Below are positions 48,127 to 55,676 of a DNA stretch of 64,000 nt, piece after piece. Positions within the stretch are counted from its first letter, which is position 1; every line of letters starts with the position of its first letter. The notes under the pieces were generated by a model that saw only the letters and a list, made by a program, of their open reading frames with translations, was not told the origin of the DNA and did not search any database. Made by a program: the position numbers and the translations under genes. The stretch comes from Apibacter sp. B3706 (GTDB lineage Bacteria > Bacteroidota > Bacteroidia > Flavobacteriales > Weeksellaceae), in contig NZ_CP049715.1 in assembly GCF_011082725.1 (NCBI RefSeq), positions 124,001 through 188,000 on the forward strand. Direction: 5' to 3'.

Positions 48127-48714
48127 TTAATGGTTTCGATCAAATAATACTTTTTCAATATCTTCCAGTTGAAAACCCTTTGCTTTCAAAAGGATAAGGT
48201 AATGGTATAGCAGATCTGCTGCTTCATTCTTAAACAAAACATCATCCGTATCCTTTGCTTCAATAACAACTTCAACAGCCTCTTCACCTACCTTTTGTGC
48301 TACTTTGTTAATTCCTTTTTGATAAAGTTGATAGGTATACGACCCGTTTACTTTTTCGTCAATTCGTTGACTGATTATATTTTGTAATTTATATACAAAT
48401 CCTTTTACATTTTGTTCCTCAAAACAAGAATAACTTCCCGTATGACAGGTAGGTCCTTCTGGAGAAACTTTAATTAGAAGAGTATCGTGATCGCAATCTA
48501 TATCAATTTTTTTTACCCATAAATAATTATGGGAGGTTTCACCTTTCGTCCATAATCGATTTTTGGAGCGGCTGAAAAAAGTCACTTTTCCTTCCCTTTT
48601 TGTTTTTTCAAAGGCTTCTTCATTCATATAACCCAGCATGAGTACTTGCAGGGTAAGTTCATCCTGAATAATTACAGGAATCAATCCGTTATTTTTATAA
48701 AAATCTAATTTCAT
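48127..48714 (-). CDS. hisIE: Bifunctional phosphoribosyl-AMP cyclohydrolase / phosphoribosyl-ATP pyrophosphatase
   Basis: 195 aa fusion. The N-terminal HisI domain (1-105) has [36 protein letters not shown] and the zinc-binding [26 protein letters not shown]. The C-terminal HisE domain (about 108-195) has [26 protein letters not shown] with the MazG-like acidic helix. It performs steps 2 and 3 of histidine synthesis. It overlaps hisF by 4 bases and is the last gene of the operon. Confidence 0.96.
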
Positions 48715-49463
48715 CGTATAGGAATATTTTTAGTTTTTAAAAATCTTTTTAATTCGGGAATGGGAATCTCATTAAAATGAAATACACTGGCAGCCAGAGC
48801 CGCCGATGCTTTAGTGTTTAAAAATACATCCGAAAAATGCTCTTTAGTACCGGCTCCTCCTGAAGCAATAACGGGAATATTTACGCTAGATGCAACATCA
48901 TGCGTAATATCAAGAGAAAATCCGTTTTTCGTACCGTCACTATTCATGGAAGTAAGTAAAATTTCACCAGCTCCCAATTGTTCCGCCTTTTTTACCCAAT
49001 CTAATGTTAAAATCGTAGTCGGGGTTCTTCCCCCGTGAGTATACACTTTCCAACCTGTATTTTCTTTTTTGGTATCCACAGCAACTACCACGCATTGACT
49101 TCCGAAACGGGAAGCAATTTCTGAAATCAATTCCGGTCTTTTTACAGCTGAAGAATTTATGCTTACTTTATCTGCACCGGCTTGAGTTAAAGAAAATACA
49201 TCTTCTACGGAATTTATTCCTCCTCCTACCGTAAATGGAATGTTAATTTCATTAGCAATTTTTTCTACTAAGTGAAGCAAGGTGGAACGGTTTTCAATAG
49301 TTGCGGTTATATCCAGGAAAACTAATTCATCTGCTCCTTGTTGTACATAAGCTTTAGCCAATTCTACCGGATCTCCGGCATCGGTGAGGCTCACAAAATT
49401 TACTCCTTTAACAGTTCTGCCGTTTTTTATATCCAAACAAGGAATTATACGTTTTTTTAGCAC
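48711..49463 (-). CDS. hisF: Imidazole glycerol phosphate synthase, cyclase subunit
   Basis: 250 aa TIM barrel. [21 protein letters not shown] contains the first catalytic Asp; [56 protein letters not shown] and [18 protein letters not shown] (second catalytic Asp) follow. With HisH it converts PRFAR and ammonia into IGP and AICAR. The start is 100 bases after hisA and its end overlaps hisIE by 4 bases. Confidence 0.97.
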
Positions 49464-49563
49464 TTCTTTTTATATTTTTTTTAAAAAATTAAAATTTGCA
49501 TGAAAAGTCTAAAGCGATTGTTTAGTAACCATACAAAGTTTCTATAAAATTACTTTACCCGTT

Positions 49564-50277
49564 TTATAAAAATTGCTTAAGTTCCTTCAATTTGATTTTT
49601 CCTTCATAAATAGCCTTTCCGATAATAGCGCCTTCACAACCTAGTTCCTTTAGTTTAAGCAAATCTTCCAGCGAAGACACCCCCCCACTGGCTATTAAAT
49701 GTATGGAAGTCGATTGAAGGATTTCTTCATACAATTCATTTGATGGGCCTTCTAAAGTTCCGTCTTTGGAAATATCTGTGCAAATTACATTACGAATGCC
49801 TTTTTTCTCATATTCTTTAATAAAATCAACTACATCTAAAGAAGAAGATTCTGTCCAACCTTGGGTGGCTATCATTCGATGATTACAATCTGCCCCTAAA
49901 ATAATTTTATCATTTCCAAAAGTTGAAAGCCAAGAAAGAAATAATTCAGGATTTTTTACGGCAATACTTCCGCCCGTAATTTGTGAAGCTCCATTTTCAA
50001 ATGCAATTTTCAAATCATCATCGCTTTTTAAGCCCCCTCCAAAATCAATTTTTAAATTTGTTTGGGAAGCTATTTTATAGAGTGTTTTATAATTGATGAT
50101 TCGGTTGGATTTTGCGCCGTCTAAATCAACCACATGCAAATATTGAATTCCGATATCCTCATATTCTTTAGCGGCATCCAAAGGATCTTCCCGATAAATT
50201 TTTTCCGTAGAATAATCTCCTTTAGTTAAACGTACACATTTTCCGTTAATAATATCTATGGCGGGTATAATTCTCAT
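49564..50277 (-). CDS. hisA: ProFAR isomerase
   Basis: 237 aa TIM barrel related to His[29 protein letters not shown] with the catalytic Asp, [57 protein letters not shown] and [21 protein letters not shown] with the second catalytic Asp are visible. It isomerises ProFAR to PRFAR (step 4). Gaps of 95 and 100 bases separate it from hisH and hisF, rather long for this operon. Confidence 0.96.
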
Positions 50278-50372
50278 TTTTTATTTCAGCTTTATTATTT
50301 TTTATTAAAGTTACGAGGGTTTACTCGTAACATACCATTGATTGAATGATAACTTTTTATCTATGCGGAAAT

Positions 50373-50951
50373 TTACAGTTCAATAAAACTTTTTAATATT
50401 TGATCACCCACATCTGCCGATTTTTCGGGATGAAATTGAGTAGCAAAAAAATTGTCTTTTTGTAAAGCAGCACTAAACGGTAAAATATAAGTACAGGTAG
50501 CAGAAGTATCTGCACATAAATCCGCATAGTAACTATGCAAAAAATATACATCATCATGGTCAGTATTTTTTTTAAAAATTTCTCCCTTTAAATCATAGAT
50601 TGTATTCCAACCCATATGAGGCACAATATCGGTAGAAGGAAATTTTCGAACGTTAACATCGAAAATATTCAGACAATGGGTGTTGCCTTCTTCCGAATGA
50701 GAACACATTAACTGCTGTCCTAAACAAATCCCCAAAAAAGGACGTGTAATCGATTTTATTAAAACATCCATACCTCTTTCCTGCAAATATGACATAGCAC
50801 TTCCGGCTTCACCTACTCCCGGAAAAATAACTTTATCGGCATGTATTATCGTGTTGGGATCATCGGTAACAACAGATTCAACCCCCAAGCGTGTTAGTGC
50901 GTTTTGTACTGATTTAATATTACCTGCATTGTATTTTATAATTGCTATCAT
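50373..50951 (-). CDS. hisH: Imidazole glycerol phosphate synthase, glutamine amidotransferase subunit
   Basis: 192 aa class I glutaminase. KYNAGNIKSVQNALTRLG, PGVGEAGSAMSYL, the nucleophile Cys in PFLGICLGQQLMC, and the His-Glu pair in FFATQFHPEKSADVG complete the catalytic triad. It supplies ammonia to HisF. It follows hisB after 119 bases. Confidence 0.96.
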   Translation of the reverse strand: MIAIIKYNAGNIKSVQNALTRLGVESVVTDDPNTIIHADKVIFPGVGEAGSAMSYLQERGMDVLIKSITRPFLGICLGQQLMCSHSEEGNTHCLNIFDVNVRKFPSTDIVPHMGWNTIYDLKGEIFKKNTDHDDVYFLHSYYADLCADTSATCTYILPFSAALQKDNFFATQFHPEKSADVGDQILKSFIEL

Positions 50952-51070
50952 TTTTCACAAGCCTTTTTTATAATTTTTGAAAGTATGTATTTTTCTTAAA
51001 TGTTTGAATTACTTAATTATTTAAAACTTTAGAAATAAGCGGTAAAAAGTAAAAAATAAGTTTATGTATT

Positions 51071-52165
51071 TTATAAACTGCCTTTTGTGCTTGGAATGGC
51101 AAAATTATCATCGGTTTGTTTAACAGCCATTTTGATAGCTTTTGCAAAGGCCTTAAAAATAGCTTCTATTTTATGATGTTCATTACTTCCTTCCGCTTTT
51201 ATATTTAAGTTAGATTTCGAATTATCGCTAAAAGATTTAAAAAAATGATAAAACATTTCGGTTGGCATTTCTCCGATCCTTTCTCTTTTAAATTCTGCCT
51301 CCCAAACGATCCACGGACGCCCCCCGAAATCGATGCCTACTTGAGCCAAACAATCATCCATCGGCAACAGAAATCCATATCTTTCAATTCCTTTTTTACT
51401 TCCAAGCGCTTGTAAAATAGCTTCACCTAAAACAATTCCCGTATCTTCTATTGTGTGATGTTCATCTACATTCAAATCTCCGTCTACTTTAATATATAAA
51501 TCCATAGAACCATGTTTGGCTATTTGTTCCAACATATGATCAAAAAAGCCTAAGCCTGTGGATATGGAACTTTTTCCCGAACCGTCCAAATATATTTCCA
51601 CGGAAATTTTGGTTTCTTTAGTATTGCGAATCACTTTAGCTTTTCGGGGTTGCTTTTTTAAATATTGATAAATTTCTTCCCAGCTTTGCGTTTGTAATTC
51701 TGCACCGGAGTTTTCTTTCATTCCCATATATATAGAACGACAGCCTAAATTTTTTGCTAATTGTACATCGGTTAATCGATCGCCAATTACATACGAATGG
51801 GAGAGATCATACTTTCCTTTTATATAATGAGTTAACATTCCCGTTCCGGGTTTTCGTGTAGGTAGATTTTCATGTTCAAAACTTCTGTCTATCAGAATTT
51901 CAGAAAACGTTATTCCTTCATTTTCAAAAGCTTTGATGATTTTATTTTGTGAAGGCCAAAAAGTTTCTTCCGGAAAGGATTCGGTACCCAATCCATCTTG
52001 ATTGGTTACCATAACCAATTCGTAATCCATTTCACGAGATATTTTGGAAAGGCTTTGGAAAACCAGGGGATAAAATTCCAATTTTTCCAAGCTGTCCAAT
52101 TGGTAATCTATCAGAGGCTCTTTAACTAAAGTGCCGTCACGGTCTATAAATAATACTTTTTTCAT
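51071..52165 (-). CDS. hisB: Bifunctional histidinol-phosphatase / imidazoleglycerol-phosphate dehydratase
   Basis: 364 aa fusion. The N-terminal HAD phosphatase has the DxD nucleophile in [16 protein letters not shown] and [24 protein letters not shown]. The C-terminal dehydratase (about 170-364) has [39 protein letters not shown] and [23 protein letters not shown] with its manganese-binding histidines. It catalyses steps 6 and 8. It overlaps hisC by 4 bases (translational coupling). Confidence 0.96.
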
Positions 52166-53199
52166 AAGGTATCGTTTAGCCTAGATAATGAATTAATTAA
52201 TTTTAAATTTTCTTCCGGAGATCCAACCGTAATACGAAGACTGTTGTTAATTTTGGAGGATTGATCTCGTACAATGATACCTTCTTGCATTAATTGGTGG
52301 AAAACTTGATTGGAATTGGAGAATTCAACGAGCAAGAAGTTCGTATCGGAAGGGTAAATTTTCGTTACTAGCGATAGCTTTTCCAAAGCAGAACGCAATT
52401 TTTCTTTTTCTTCAAGAATAATTTTTTTTCTTTTTTCAAATTCACTGCTTTGATTCAGCGCTTCCAAAGCAGCCTTTTGATTCAATTCGCTGATGTTATA
52501 TGGATGCTTTACTTTGTTAAGTAAATGAATAATTTCAGGTTGAGCATAGGCCATACCAATACGTACTCCCGCAATTCCCCAAGCCTTACTGAGCGTTTGG
52601 AACAGTACAAGATTTGGGTATTGATCCATTTTTTCCATATAGGAAGGTTGGTTGGTAAATTCTATATATGCTTCATCGATTGCAACAATTCCGTTAAATT
52701 TTTTTAGTATAAAATCAATATCTTTTGGATTAATCGCATTGCCGGTCGGATTGTTGGGAGTACAAATAACAATTACTTTTAGATTTTCATCGTTGAAATA
52801 TTTTTGAGCTTCTTCGATATTGATTTGAAAATCGGATGTTAAAGGAATATCAACAATCGTAACATCGTTCAACTCTGCTGCTACCTGGTACATTCCGAAA
52901 GTTGGACTGAAAAACATGGCTTTGTCTTTACCGGGATTGCAAAATACCCGATAAATATGATCTATTATTTCATCACTTCCGTTCCCAATAAAAATTTTTT
53001 CCGTTGCAATATTTTTAATTTCACTTAATTTTTGTTTTAAATCTTTTTGGTAGGGATCCGGATAACGATTATTGTTTCCAAAAGGGTTTTCGTTGGCGTC
53101 TAAAAAAATTCCTTTTATTCCTCCGGATTCATCTCTTGCGGAAGAATACGGATGCATGGCAAGCACATTGGGACGGGCCAGTTGATTTATATTTTTCAT
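52162..53199 (-). CDS. hisC: Histidinol-phosphate aminotransferase
   Basis: 345 aa from ATG 53199, chosen because the family start ([22 protein letters not shown]) begins here; an in-frame ATG at 53232 would add 11 residues and is possible. Fold-type I PLP enzyme: [43 protein letters not shown], and the PLP lysine in [20 protein letters not shown]. It transaminates imidazole-acetol phosphate (step 7). Confidence 0.95.
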
Positions 53200-53271
53200 G
53201 GTTATTATTTTTATTGAATTAAAAGCGTTCATTCTACCCTATTTGTTTTTAAATAAAATATATAAATTAGT

Positions 53272-54552
53272 TTAATTGGATCGTAAACGTATGCTCACCG
53301 CATTTTTATGAGCTTGCAGCTCTTCAGCTTCAGCCATTAATTCTATAGTATTTCCGATCTTTTGCAATCCCTCTTTGGTTAGTTCTTGAAAAGTGATTTT
53401 TTTGTAAAAACTATCCAGAGAAACCCCGCTGTAATTTCGTGCATAGCCATTAGTAGGCAATGTGTGGTTCGTTCCGCTTGCATAATCTCCGGCACTTTCA
53501 CAGCTATAATTGCCTAGAAATACAGATCCTGCATTTTCAATAGAGTGTGTATAGTTTTTGGCTTGATCAATAGCTAAGATCAGATGTTCCGGAGCATAAA
53601 GATTACTCAATTGAAAACATTCTTCTAAGGAATTCAATAAAACACCTAAACTATTACGTAAAGCTTTTTTAGCAATTTCTTTTCGAGGAAGACTTTCGAG
53701 TTGAGTATTGATTTCGGCTAGGGTCTGATTTAAAATTTCTGAATCCGTGGTTAGGAATACAACTTGACTGTCAGGGCCATGCTCTGCTTGTGAGAGTAAA
53801 TCGGAAGCAACATACGCAGGATTAGCGGACGAATCAGCCACTACTAATACCTCACTGGGCCCAGCAGGTAAATCTATGCTGACTTTGAATTCTTGGGCGT
53901 ATTGTTTAGCTGCGGTTACATATTGGTTTCCCGGACCGAAAATTTTATAGACTGGTGAAATGGATTCTGTACCTACAGTCATCGCTGCGATGGCTTGAAC
54001 ACCTCCTACCTTGTATATATTTTTGATACCTATCGTTTTTGCTGCATATAAAATAGCAGGATGTATTTTGCCTTCTTTATTGGGAGGGGTGCATAATACA
54101 ATTTCTTTACATTCTGCAATTCTAGCGGGTACTCCCAACATTAAAACGGTCGAAAAAAGCGGTGCAGACCCTCCGGGAATATATAATCCAACTTTTTCTA
54201 TAGCTCTGGATTCCCTCCAACATTCAATGCCGGGTTGTATTTCAATAATTTTCTTCTTTTCTTTTTGAGAAAGATGAAATTTTTCAATGTTGGATTTAGC
54301 TTGTAAGATGGCTTGTTTCAATTCATCGGAAACTAATGATTCCGCCTCAAAAAGTTCTTGTTCTGAGACAGTAAAGCTAGTTAAAGACACTTGGTCAAAT
54401 TGAAGAGTATATTTTTTTAAGGCTGCATCGCCTTCATTTTTTACATCGGTAAATACATTTTTTACGGTTTCATACAATGAAACTTTTTCATTTTCAGGTC
54501 TTTTGACTAAATGGTGCCAATCATTTATTGGAGGATATTTTATAATGTTCAT
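53272..54552 (-). CDS. hisD: Histidinol dehydrogenase
   Basis: 426 aa. GLYIPGGSAPLFSTVLMLGVPARIAECKEIVLCTPP, VGGVQAIAAMTVGT, KIFGPGNQYVTAAKQ, DLPAGPSEVLVVADSSANPAYVASDLLSQAEHGPDSQVVFLT and the catalytic/zinc region YAPEHLILAI and GDYASGTNHTLPTNGYA are all conserved. It oxidises histidinol to histidine with NAD (final steps). It follows hisG after 73 bases. Confidence 0.97.
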   Translation of the reverse strand: MNIIKYPPINDWHHLVKRPENEKVSLYETVKNVFTDVKNEGDAALKKYTLQFDQVSLTSFTVSEQELFEAESLVSDELKQAILQAKSNIEKFHLSQKEKKKIIEIQPGIECWRESRAIEKVGLYIPGGSAPLFSTVLMLGVPARIAECKEIVLCTPPNKEGKIHPAILYAAKTIGIKNIYKVGGVQAIAAMTVGTESISPVYKIFGPGNQYVTAAKQYAQEFKVSIDLPAGPSEVLVVADSSANPAYVASDLLSQAEHGPDSQVVFLTTDSEILNQTLAEINTQLESLPRKEIAKKALRNSLGVLLNSLEECFQLSNLYAPEHLILAIDQAKNYTHSIENAGSVFLGNYSCESAGDYASGTNHTLPTNGYARNYSGVSLDSFYKKITFQELTKEGLQKIGNTIELMAEAEELQAHKNAVSIRLRSN

Positions 54553-54625: not shown

Positions 54626-55483
54626 TTAAAGAATCATTTTTTGAATAGGAATGACTAAAATTCCTTGCGCTCCAAATTCTTTTAATTGTTCAATGATGTC
54701 CCAAAACTTATCTTCTTTAATTACAGAATGTATGCTGCTCCATCCTTCTTTTGCCAGGGGTAAAATAGTAGGACTTTTAACTCCGGGTAATAAAGAAATT
54801 ATGTCTTTCAGGTTTTCATTAGGAGCATTCAACAAGATGTATTTATTTTCTCGTGAATATAGTACCGATTGAATTCTGAACAATAATTTATCTAGAATTT
54901 CTTGTTTATCTTGGGAGAGTTTTTTTGATTTTATAAGGGCTGCTTCGCTTTTAGTAACGGTTTCCACTTCTTTTAGTCCGTTCATGAGAAGTGTACTTCC
55001 GGTGCTGACAATATCGAAAATGCAATTAGCCAAACCTATTCCCGGAGCTATTTCAACGCTTCCGCCGATTTCTTCAATTTCAACCTTTACATTGTTTTTT
55101 TTGCAAAATTTCTTTAAAATTTTAGGATAACTAGTTGCAATTCTTTTATTATTAAAATAAGCAATTCCCGTATATGTTTCTTCTTTAGGTATAGCCAAAC
55201 ACATTCGGCAATTACCGAAACCTAATTTCTTTATGATTTCTACATTTCGGTCTTTTTCCCAAACTTCGTTTTCGCCTAAAATCCCAATATCGGCTACATT
55301 TTGTTCTACATATTGTGGGATATCATCATCTCTAAGAAATAAGATTTCAATAGGAAAATTGGTAGATACAGTTTTCAATTTCTGATTACCATTTGGAATT
55401 TTTATTCCGCATTCACTCAATAATTCCAGTGATTTTTGACTTAGCCGTCCGTTTTTTTGGATAGCAATTTTCAGTTTACTCAT
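54626..55483 (-). CDS. hisG: ATP phosphoribosyltransferase, long form
   Basis: 285 aa. The length indicates the long form with a C-terminal histidine-sensing regulatory domain (about 210-285, SLLPGVKSPTILPLAKEGWSSIHSVIKEDKFW), so HisZ is not needed. Catalytic parts: LKIAIQKNGRLSQKSLELLSECGI, RDDDIPQYVEQNVADIGILGENE and the PRPP loop LANCIFDIVSTGSTLLMNGLKEV. It commits ATP and PRPP to histidine synthesis. The first gene of the operon; a leader peptide and an attenuator lie directly upstream. Confidence 0.96.
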   Translation of the reverse strand: MSKLKIAIQKNGRLSQKSLELLSECGIKIPNGNQKLKTVSTNFPIEILFLRDDDIPQYVEQNVADIGILGENEVWEKDRNVEIIKKLGFGNCRMCLAIPKEETYTGIAYFNNKRIATSYPKILKKFCKKNNVKVEIEEIGGSVEIAPGIGLANCIFDIVSTGSTLLMNGLKEVETVTKSEAALIKSKKLSQDKQEILDKLLFRIQSVLYSRENKYILLNAPNENLKDIISLLPGVKSPTILPLAKEGWSSIHSVIKEDKFWDIIEQLKEFGAQGILVIPIQKMIL

Positions 55484-55524
55484 TAGCCATAGTTTTTAAA
55501 TTTTTTTACTATTGAAGTGATCCT

Positions 55525-55553
55525 AAAAAAAAACCGCCCGAAAACTCAGGCGG
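55525..55553 (-). terminator. his operon attenuator terminator
   Basis: On the minus strand CCGCCTG (55553-55547) pairs with CGGGCGG (55540-55534), one T-G wobble and a 6-base loop, followed by nine T residues (55533-55525). It lies between the His-rich leader ORF and hisG. The leader segment TCAGGTG (55603-55597) can pair instead with CGCCTGA of the 5' arm to make an antiterminator. Confidence 0.85.
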
Positions 55554-55590
55554 CTATTATTTATTTTGACATTTTGCATAACAAAATTAC

Positions 55591-55647
55591 TTACCTCACC
55601 TGATTGTAAGTGTGTAAATAATGATGATGTATATGTGTTTGAATCAT
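55591..55647 (-). CDS. hisL: his operon leader peptide
   Basis: An 18-codon ORF on the minus strand encodes MIQTHIHHHYLHTYNQVR, with five histidines at positions 5, 7, 8, 9 and 12. It sits 107 bases before hisG, just 5' of a GC-rich terminator, downstream of a TAAATTTG promoter box. His-rich leader peptides that stall on low charged tRNA-His are the textbook sensor of his attenuation. When the ribosome stalls at codons 5-12 the segment TCAGGTG (codons 15-17) is free to form the antiterminator; when it reaches the stop, that segment is covered and the terminator forms. The composition could hardly arise by chance. Confidence 0.85.
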   Translation of the reverse strand: MIQTHIHHHYLHTYNQVR

Positions 55648-55668
55648 TTTTGTTTATATTGATTGGTA

Positions 55669-55676
55669 CAAATTTA
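55669..55676 (-). promoter_or_regulatory. -7 promoter box of the his leader and operon
   Basis: Minus-strand TAAATTTG, 21 bases before the leader peptide ATG at 55647. Confidence 0.55.

Follow-up and report, generated by a model that had tools for sequence, protein, structure and literature searches.

A probable histidine attenuator upstream of hisG

The his operon of Apibacter sp. B3706 is very probably controlled by a ribosome-mediated transcription attenuator directly upstream of its first gene, hisG. The element lies on the minus strand of a 64,000-nucleotide stretch of contig NZ_CP049715.1 (positions 124001-188000 of the 2.3 Mb genome), which we call the window and whose numbering is used throughout. 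The attenuator reading draws on sequence, conservation, compensatory changes and folding under modelled ribosome positions. An initial annotation of the window, made from the letters alone, had placed a promoter box, a histidine-rich open reading frame (ORF), a pairing segment TCAGGTG, a terminator and hisG here, and its coordinates hold on the minus strand.

The leader ORF (55591-55647) runs from ATG to the TAA stop at 55593-55591 and has 18 codons (MIQTHIHHHYLHTYNQVR). Its five histidine codons are at 55635-55633, 55629-55621 (three consecutive) and 55614-55612. Four segments are distinguished, the first of them inside the ORF. Segment 1 (CTTAC, 55606-55610) pairs with GTGAG (55599-55595), and this stem 1:2 would be the anti-antiterminator. 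Segment 2 (55595-55603) contains both that GTGAG and the overlapping TCAGGTG (55603-55597), which pairs with the 5′ arm of the terminator. That arm is segment 3 (CCGCCTGA, 55546-55553), common to the antiterminator (2:3) and the terminator (3:4). Segment 4 (55525-55541) is made up of the 3′ arm of the terminator (TCGGGCGG, 55541-55534) and a T run. The terminator hairpin (55553-55534) thus reads CCGCCTGA, loop GTTT, TCGGGCGG; it is GC-rich, as annotated, and is directly followed by nine T (55533-55525).

Conservation of the leader and its promoter

Relatives were taken as the best 80 of 497 HisG relatives from the scan, and they include records of Flavobacterium, Empedobacter, Epilithonimonas, Bacteroidales, Chitinophagaceae, Crocinitomicaceae and Saprospiraceae. 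A leader with at least three histidines, then a terminator, occupies the same place upstream of hisG in 74 of the 80; with the window these are the 75 elements considered below. We compared the 400 bases upstream of hisG with their dinucleotide shuffles, counting ORFs of 8-40 codons. A short ORF with at least three consecutive histidines is found in 68 of 81 upstream regions (80 relatives plus the window) versus 3 of 1620 shuffles. For the window alone, a run of this length arises in 3 of 2000 shuffles and five histidines in none of 2000. The histidine codons are conserved in Flavobacteriia and also in the Bacteroidales and Chitinophagales records.

A wider sample covered 198 genomes of the phylum, 171 of them with HisG. 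Upstream regions were inspected in 69 (40 picked by hand and the 29 ranking best once the window's own is set aside), related to the window at family or order (20), class (24) or phylum level (25). As raw counts without a shuffle control, and with some hisG starts placed roughly, an ORF with at least three histidines was found in 20/20 order-level, 24/24 class-level and 16/25 phylum-level genomes, two of these last 16 (L147, L150) being unconvincing. By script, a terminator after the histidine ORF was detected in 20/20, 14/24 and 9/25 genomes, respectively, and in one genome (L092) a terminator was detected without a histidine-rich ORF. Beyond order level the leader and terminator sequences diverge.

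The putative promoter of the window is the -7 box TAAATTTG (55669-55676), of the TAnnTTTG type, upstream of the leader as the initial annotation had it. The sigma-A consensus TAnnTTTG is named in passages of PMC9723704. Of 75 loci, 68 have the motif in the 60 nt that precede the leader start, versus 5 of 75 when each was shuffled once, and the box ends a median of 19 nt before the start codon. Of the same loci, 74 of 75 (the window included) have no 4-mer resembling a Shine-Dalgarno (SD) sequence ahead of the leader, in agreement with the annotated lack of a clear SD.

Alternative pairings

Pairings were scored on an alignment of 49 non-redundant sequences (A1), with slid registers and 500 column shuffles as controls; three loci with a long distance from terminator to hisG (L011, L067, L069) were left out. 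The antiterminator 2:3 is paired in 89.0% of cells (at most 41.4% when slid), with both sides changed in nine cells. The terminator 3:4 is paired in 94.3% of cells (at most 45.7% slid; both sides changed in 24), and the stem 1:2 in 83.7% (at most 44.7% slid; both sides changed in six). Paired percentage, changed cells and covariation score all exceed the column shuffles, which keep relatedness and match them in 0 to 9 of 500 cases. Co-changes in 2:3 include CAGGCG with CGTCTG, CAAGCG or CAAACG with CGTTTG, and CAGGTG with CGCCTG in the window. Taken singly, 2:3 beats shuffles in 52 of 75 elements at z < -2 (a cut-off of our choosing), and the window, at z = -2.5, is among them. In 74 of 75 elements, segment 2 ends at most 10 nt before or after the stop codon of the leader. 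Comparison with related Flavobacteriia, the check proposed in the initial annotation, finds the histidine codons and both main pairings (2:3 and 3:4) conserved, with TCAGGTG in the antiterminator as predicted; the two pairings are conserved in the Bacteroidales and Chitinophagales records as well.

The second hairpin of the annotation, ACTTAC/GTAAGT, is present in the window, but it is rejected as a conserved stem, having at least five of six pairs in only 5 of the 49 non-redundant sequences. The conserved register is CTTAC/GTGAG (55610-55606 with 55599-55595), with at least four of five pairs in 39 of 49.

Folding and the proposed switch

We folded the RNA that precedes synthesis of the terminator 3′ arm, with a ribosome (footprint 15 nt upstream and 12 nt downstream of the A site) at the histidine run, at the stop codon, or absent. 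This was done for 74 of the 75 elements; the contig of the other (L080) begins too near the leader. The mean probability of 2:3 before segment 4 is 0.93 with the ribosome stalled at the histidine run, 0.35 without a ribosome, and 0.06 with the ribosome at the stop codon, this last value being largely built into the assumed footprint, since the stop is at most 10 nt from the end of segment 2 in 74 of 75 elements. The probability exceeds 0.5 in 74/74, 26/74 and 0/74 elements in the same order, and in the window it is 0.98, 0.57 and 0.00.

That dependence on the footprint is one of several points that weigh against an attenuator. At equilibrium the terminator hairpin wins at any ribosome position in most elements, and among 25 chosen elements, 24 favor the terminator when the complete RNA is folded with the ribosome absent; the switch must therefore be kinetic. 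Known attenuators also switch kinetically. The count of pairs changed on both sides is not above the column shuffles, which reach it in 323, 64 and 283 of 500 cases for 2:3, 1:2 and 3:4, respectively, and 2:3 fails to reach z = -2 in 23 of 75 elements. Finally, no leader was found in 6 of the 80 relatives (L026, L033, L036, L038, L039, L063), one of which (L038) has only 150 bases upstream of hisG and another (L063) keeps the terminator.

On the other side stand the features expected of an attenuator. A candidate leader rich in codons of the pathway's own amino acid is predicted upstream of the operon in 74 of 80 relatives and in the window, and a predicted intrinsic terminator separates it from the first gene. 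Judged from sequence and folding together, the antiterminator excludes the terminator, and a ribosome at the stop codon would mask its 5′ part.

From these features we infer where transcription starts, that the leader is translated, that the switch depends on His-tRNA, and that transcription terminates, as follows. Transcription would begin a few bases past the TAnnTTTG box, and a ribosome would load on the A-rich leader without an SD sequence. When charged His-tRNA is present, the ribosome would reach the stop codon and cover segment 2, so that 3:4 pairs and RNA polymerase stops at the T run. If charged His-tRNA runs short, the ribosome would stall in the histidine codons; segment 2, left free, would pair with segment 3 ahead of the synthesis of segment 4, and the polymerase would then proceed into hisG. 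The attenuator of the window is ordinary in mechanism and well supported. The initial annotation saw in it a compact version of the enterobacterial his switch; the likeness to that switch stands, but the layout is widely shared and the window is no special compact case.

A fifth segment in relatives

Most relatives possess a further segment between the terminator and hisG, e.g., GATTTACTCAGAC, that is complementary to the 5′ arm and loop of the terminator (GTCTGAGTAAATC). This segment 5 forms a duplex with segment 3 that beats dinucleotide shuffles (z < -2) in 59 of 75 elements, with a median z of -5.1, and that none of 100 shuffles matches in 51 of 75. The three loci with a long distance from terminator to hisG were kept in this count. 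In 16 elements the duplex is not significant: the window, L001-L004, L009, L011, L023, L044, L048-L050, L056, L067, L069 and L078. Length and position were taken from 36 non-redundant elements with z < -2, near-identical ones having been dropped. Their duplexes are 9-15 bp long (median 12.5), and segment 5 ends a median of 15 nt before the hisG start, with a standard deviation (sd) of 2.9 nt; its distance to the terminator has an sd of 6.0.

The two sides of the duplex are matched to one another within species. Over 13 pairs the paired fraction is 0.819, versus a mean of 0.749 and a maximum of 0.777 when partners are exchanged at random between species. The loop part has 0.727 (exchange mean 0.597, maximum 0.657). 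The two arm parts, at 0.862 and 0.893, are not above the best exchange (0.872 and 0.898), as the arm sequence hardly varies. Loops that differ are matched by segment 5, as in GTATATC/GATATAC, GTGTACT/AGTACAT and AAGGGAAAC/GTTTCCTTT. On A1 the core of 3:5 is paired in 89.4% of cells, versus at most 39.1% when slid, with both sides changed in 14 cells; changed cells exceed the shuffles (1 of 500 reaches them) and changed pairs do not (180 of 500 reach them). In the wider sample, segment 5 has z < -2 in 15/20 order-level genomes, in 0/14 class-level genomes with a terminator, and in 3/10 phylum-level genomes tested, of which only L118 has this motif. In a Fluviicola metagenome-assembled genome (MAG; L063), the terminator and segment 5 are visible upstream of hisG and no leader was found; either an assembly error or a genuine loss may explain this.

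In the window, the corresponding region (55484-55524) was tested and the pairing is not significant (z -1.2; 10 of 100 shuffles pair equally well). Among the nearest relatives, z is -2.2 in A. muscae (L005), -1.9 in A. adventoris (L003), -1.3 in a Flavobacteriaceae MAG (L004) and -0.7 in both A. mensalis (L001) and an Apibacter MAG (L002). In Apibacter, then, the arm is either gone or decaying.

That segment 5 competes with the terminator at equilibrium is not supported, as 3:4 beats 3:5 without a ribosome in 24 of the 25 chosen elements, five of them of Apibacter type. Segment 5 would therefore form in cis mainly once segment 3 has left the terminator, i.e., in antiterminated RNA. It is also transcribed after the terminator, so it cannot influence that termination and would act after the transcription decision. 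We give about even odds to a reading in which segment 5, in most of the sampled Bacteroidia near the window, pairs with the 5′ arm and loop of the terminator and acts at that later stage. The loop bases might offer a toehold from which segment 5 pushes segment 2 aside, so that hisG translation, or a pause of the polymerase where hisG begins, would be set by the state of the leader. Our leading guess is that hisG is controlled at translation. In a variant of this reading, terminated leader RNA would act in trans by pairing with the segment 5 of those his mRNAs that survive. The trp leader RNA of Sinorhizobium acts in trans. PMC9373788 mentions a small RNA that arises when transcription terminates at a riboswitch, and PMC7298713 mentions a leader peptide with activity in trans. 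We found no clear second target in 10 genomes: a 13-base pattern of segment 5 had 34 matches versus 7 for its reversed control, part of the 34 being the his element itself, one copy of which can match both strands, and the other matches were not inspected singly.

Segments 3 and 5 also form an inverted repeat in DNA, with opposite-strand match pairs 44-52 bases apart, and segment 5 of the relatives might be half of a protein-bound site rather than an RNA arm. We consider this unlikely: both sides co-vary between genera, which is hard to fit with a fixed binding specificity, and the spacing between them is variable. That the leader mainly controls translation of hisG, with the terminator secondary and segment 5 of the relatives as the arm that governs hisG, is highly improbable. 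The position of segment 5, which scatters less relative to hisG than to the terminator, would suit such a role; against it stand the complete terminator of the window, with its nine T, and the lack of a significant segment 5 there.

Leaders of other amino acid operons

Other biosynthetic operons in these genomes have candidate leaders of the same kind. Leaders rich in tryptophan lie upstream of trpE (L151, L152, L154, L155, L159-L165), leaders rich in phenylalanine upstream of pheA (L234-L237, L239, L241-L244), and leaders rich in threonine and isoleucine upstream of thrA in 5 of 11 thrA stretches (L220, L221, L223, L225, L227). With leaders of the own amino acid at trpE, pheA and thrA, attenuation seems to be common in the phylum. 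In Apibacter sp. B3706 itself, outside the window, a leader MYQHNYILLLLLVLVNIY lies upstream of ilvD near 1715985-1716154 (L183:1277-1446). Right after its stop codon comes AGAGAAAGGG, which forms a 10-bp duplex with a hairpin's 5′ arm; this element is likely to be an ilv attenuator, although the T run is weak. The ilvD gene of Empedobacter brevis (L189) is preceded by two tandem units of leader plus terminator, the second with six consecutive isoleucine codons.

These leaders do not support the view that Bacteroidota attenuators in general contain segment 5. It reaches z < -2 in none of 11 terminator-bearing trp leaders (from 15 trpE loci), in none of three ilv leaders with a terminator found by script (10 ilvD loci; the leaders at L181 and L183 stood outside the test), and in one of nine phe leaders (12 pheA loci). 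The phe case (L235) is marginal at z -2.2 and has just 14 bases after its terminator; its neighbor L234 has z -1.9. Segment 5 seems to be special to his. The phe terminator hairpin itself ends 13-18 nt before pheA (L234-L237, L241-L244), about the distance from the end of segment 5 to hisG, and a helix edge at about -15 could be a shared feature.

That the terminator is constitutive or answers another signal, the histidine-rich ORF being incidental, would agree with its preference at equilibrium without a ribosome, but is highly improbable given that histidine runs and pairing 2:3 are conserved far beyond chance and that trpE, pheA, thrA and ilvD in these genomes can have leaders rich in their own amino acid.

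The operon downstream

The first gene under the proposed attenuator is hisG (54626-55483), which scores above the cut-off for TIGR00070 and TIGR03455. The rest of the operon (48127-54552), each gene above the cut-off of an NCBIfam model, is hisD, hisC, hisB (bifunctional), hisH, hisA, hisF and hisIE, giving eight genes in the order hisG-D-C-B-H-A-F-IE, all on the minus strand. HisG of the window is 93% identical to that of A. mensalis and 79-91% identical to those of L002-L005. An out-of-frame ORF of four codons, ATGGCTAATGAGTAA, overlaps the hisG start (55476-55490, minus strand), and A. mensalis has ATGATTAATGAATAA at the matching position.

Relation to known attenuators

The E. coli his leader has alternative pairings. 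Bacteroidetes may be among the groups in a comparative study of attenuators by Russian authors from 2010. As in hisL-hisG of E. coli K-12, a histidine-rich leader peptide and then a terminator stand immediately before hisG in the window. Unlike the enterobacterial leader (hisL; RF00514), the Bacteroidota elements lack an SD-like 4-mer before the leader (74 of 75 loci). E. coli his is in turn without a segment 5, as 187 of 200 shuffles pair equally well. An Rfam scan of the window at gathering thresholds gave no match; RF00514 (His_leader) scores 24.2 bits in the window, below its gathering threshold of 49, and no Rfam family reaches its threshold in any of the 16 loci scanned among the 80 relatives.

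For Flavobacteriaceae, passages of PMC9723704 (2021) describe a conserved structured element upstream of hisG without an Rfam match, and strong clues for leader-peptide attenuation at amino acid operons of Flavobacterium psychrophilum; these passages do not give a leader peptide, pairing or fifth segment for hisG. Histidine attenuators of Firmicutes (PMC9413887, PMC2965389) are described in passages as having a short histidine-rich peptide and a terminator, and in PMC9413887 also an alternative antiterminator. They belong to another phylum, and no word beginning "Bacteroid-" occurs in the main texts of the two papers. According to a passage of PMC2965389 (2010), leader-peptide systems had been known only in Proteobacteria and Actinobacteria, ermC apart, before its own case from Firmicutes. 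In passages of PMC8305728 (2021), on the his genes of Bacteroidota, the word leader is absent and attenuation is named once, for E. coli and Salmonella. Leader-like small ORFs in Bacteroides thetaiotaomicron are reported in passages of PMC7366714, whose main text has neither histidine nor hisG. In the open-licence literature of PubMed Central we found no description of a histidine leader peptide or a fifth segment in Bacteroidota. A his attenuator is already hinted at in print for this group; new are its description across the sampled Bacteroidia and the fifth segment of the relatives.

PMC9976891 reports that ribosomes of Bacteroidota fail to recognize SD sequences, so the ribosomes on these leaders must load by another route. 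Our results indicate that attenuation of amino acid operons by ribosome stalling is widespread in a phylum whose ribosomes are blind to the SD. The fifth segment, if functional, would add a post-transcriptional layer to one of the best-known RNA switches in bacteria.
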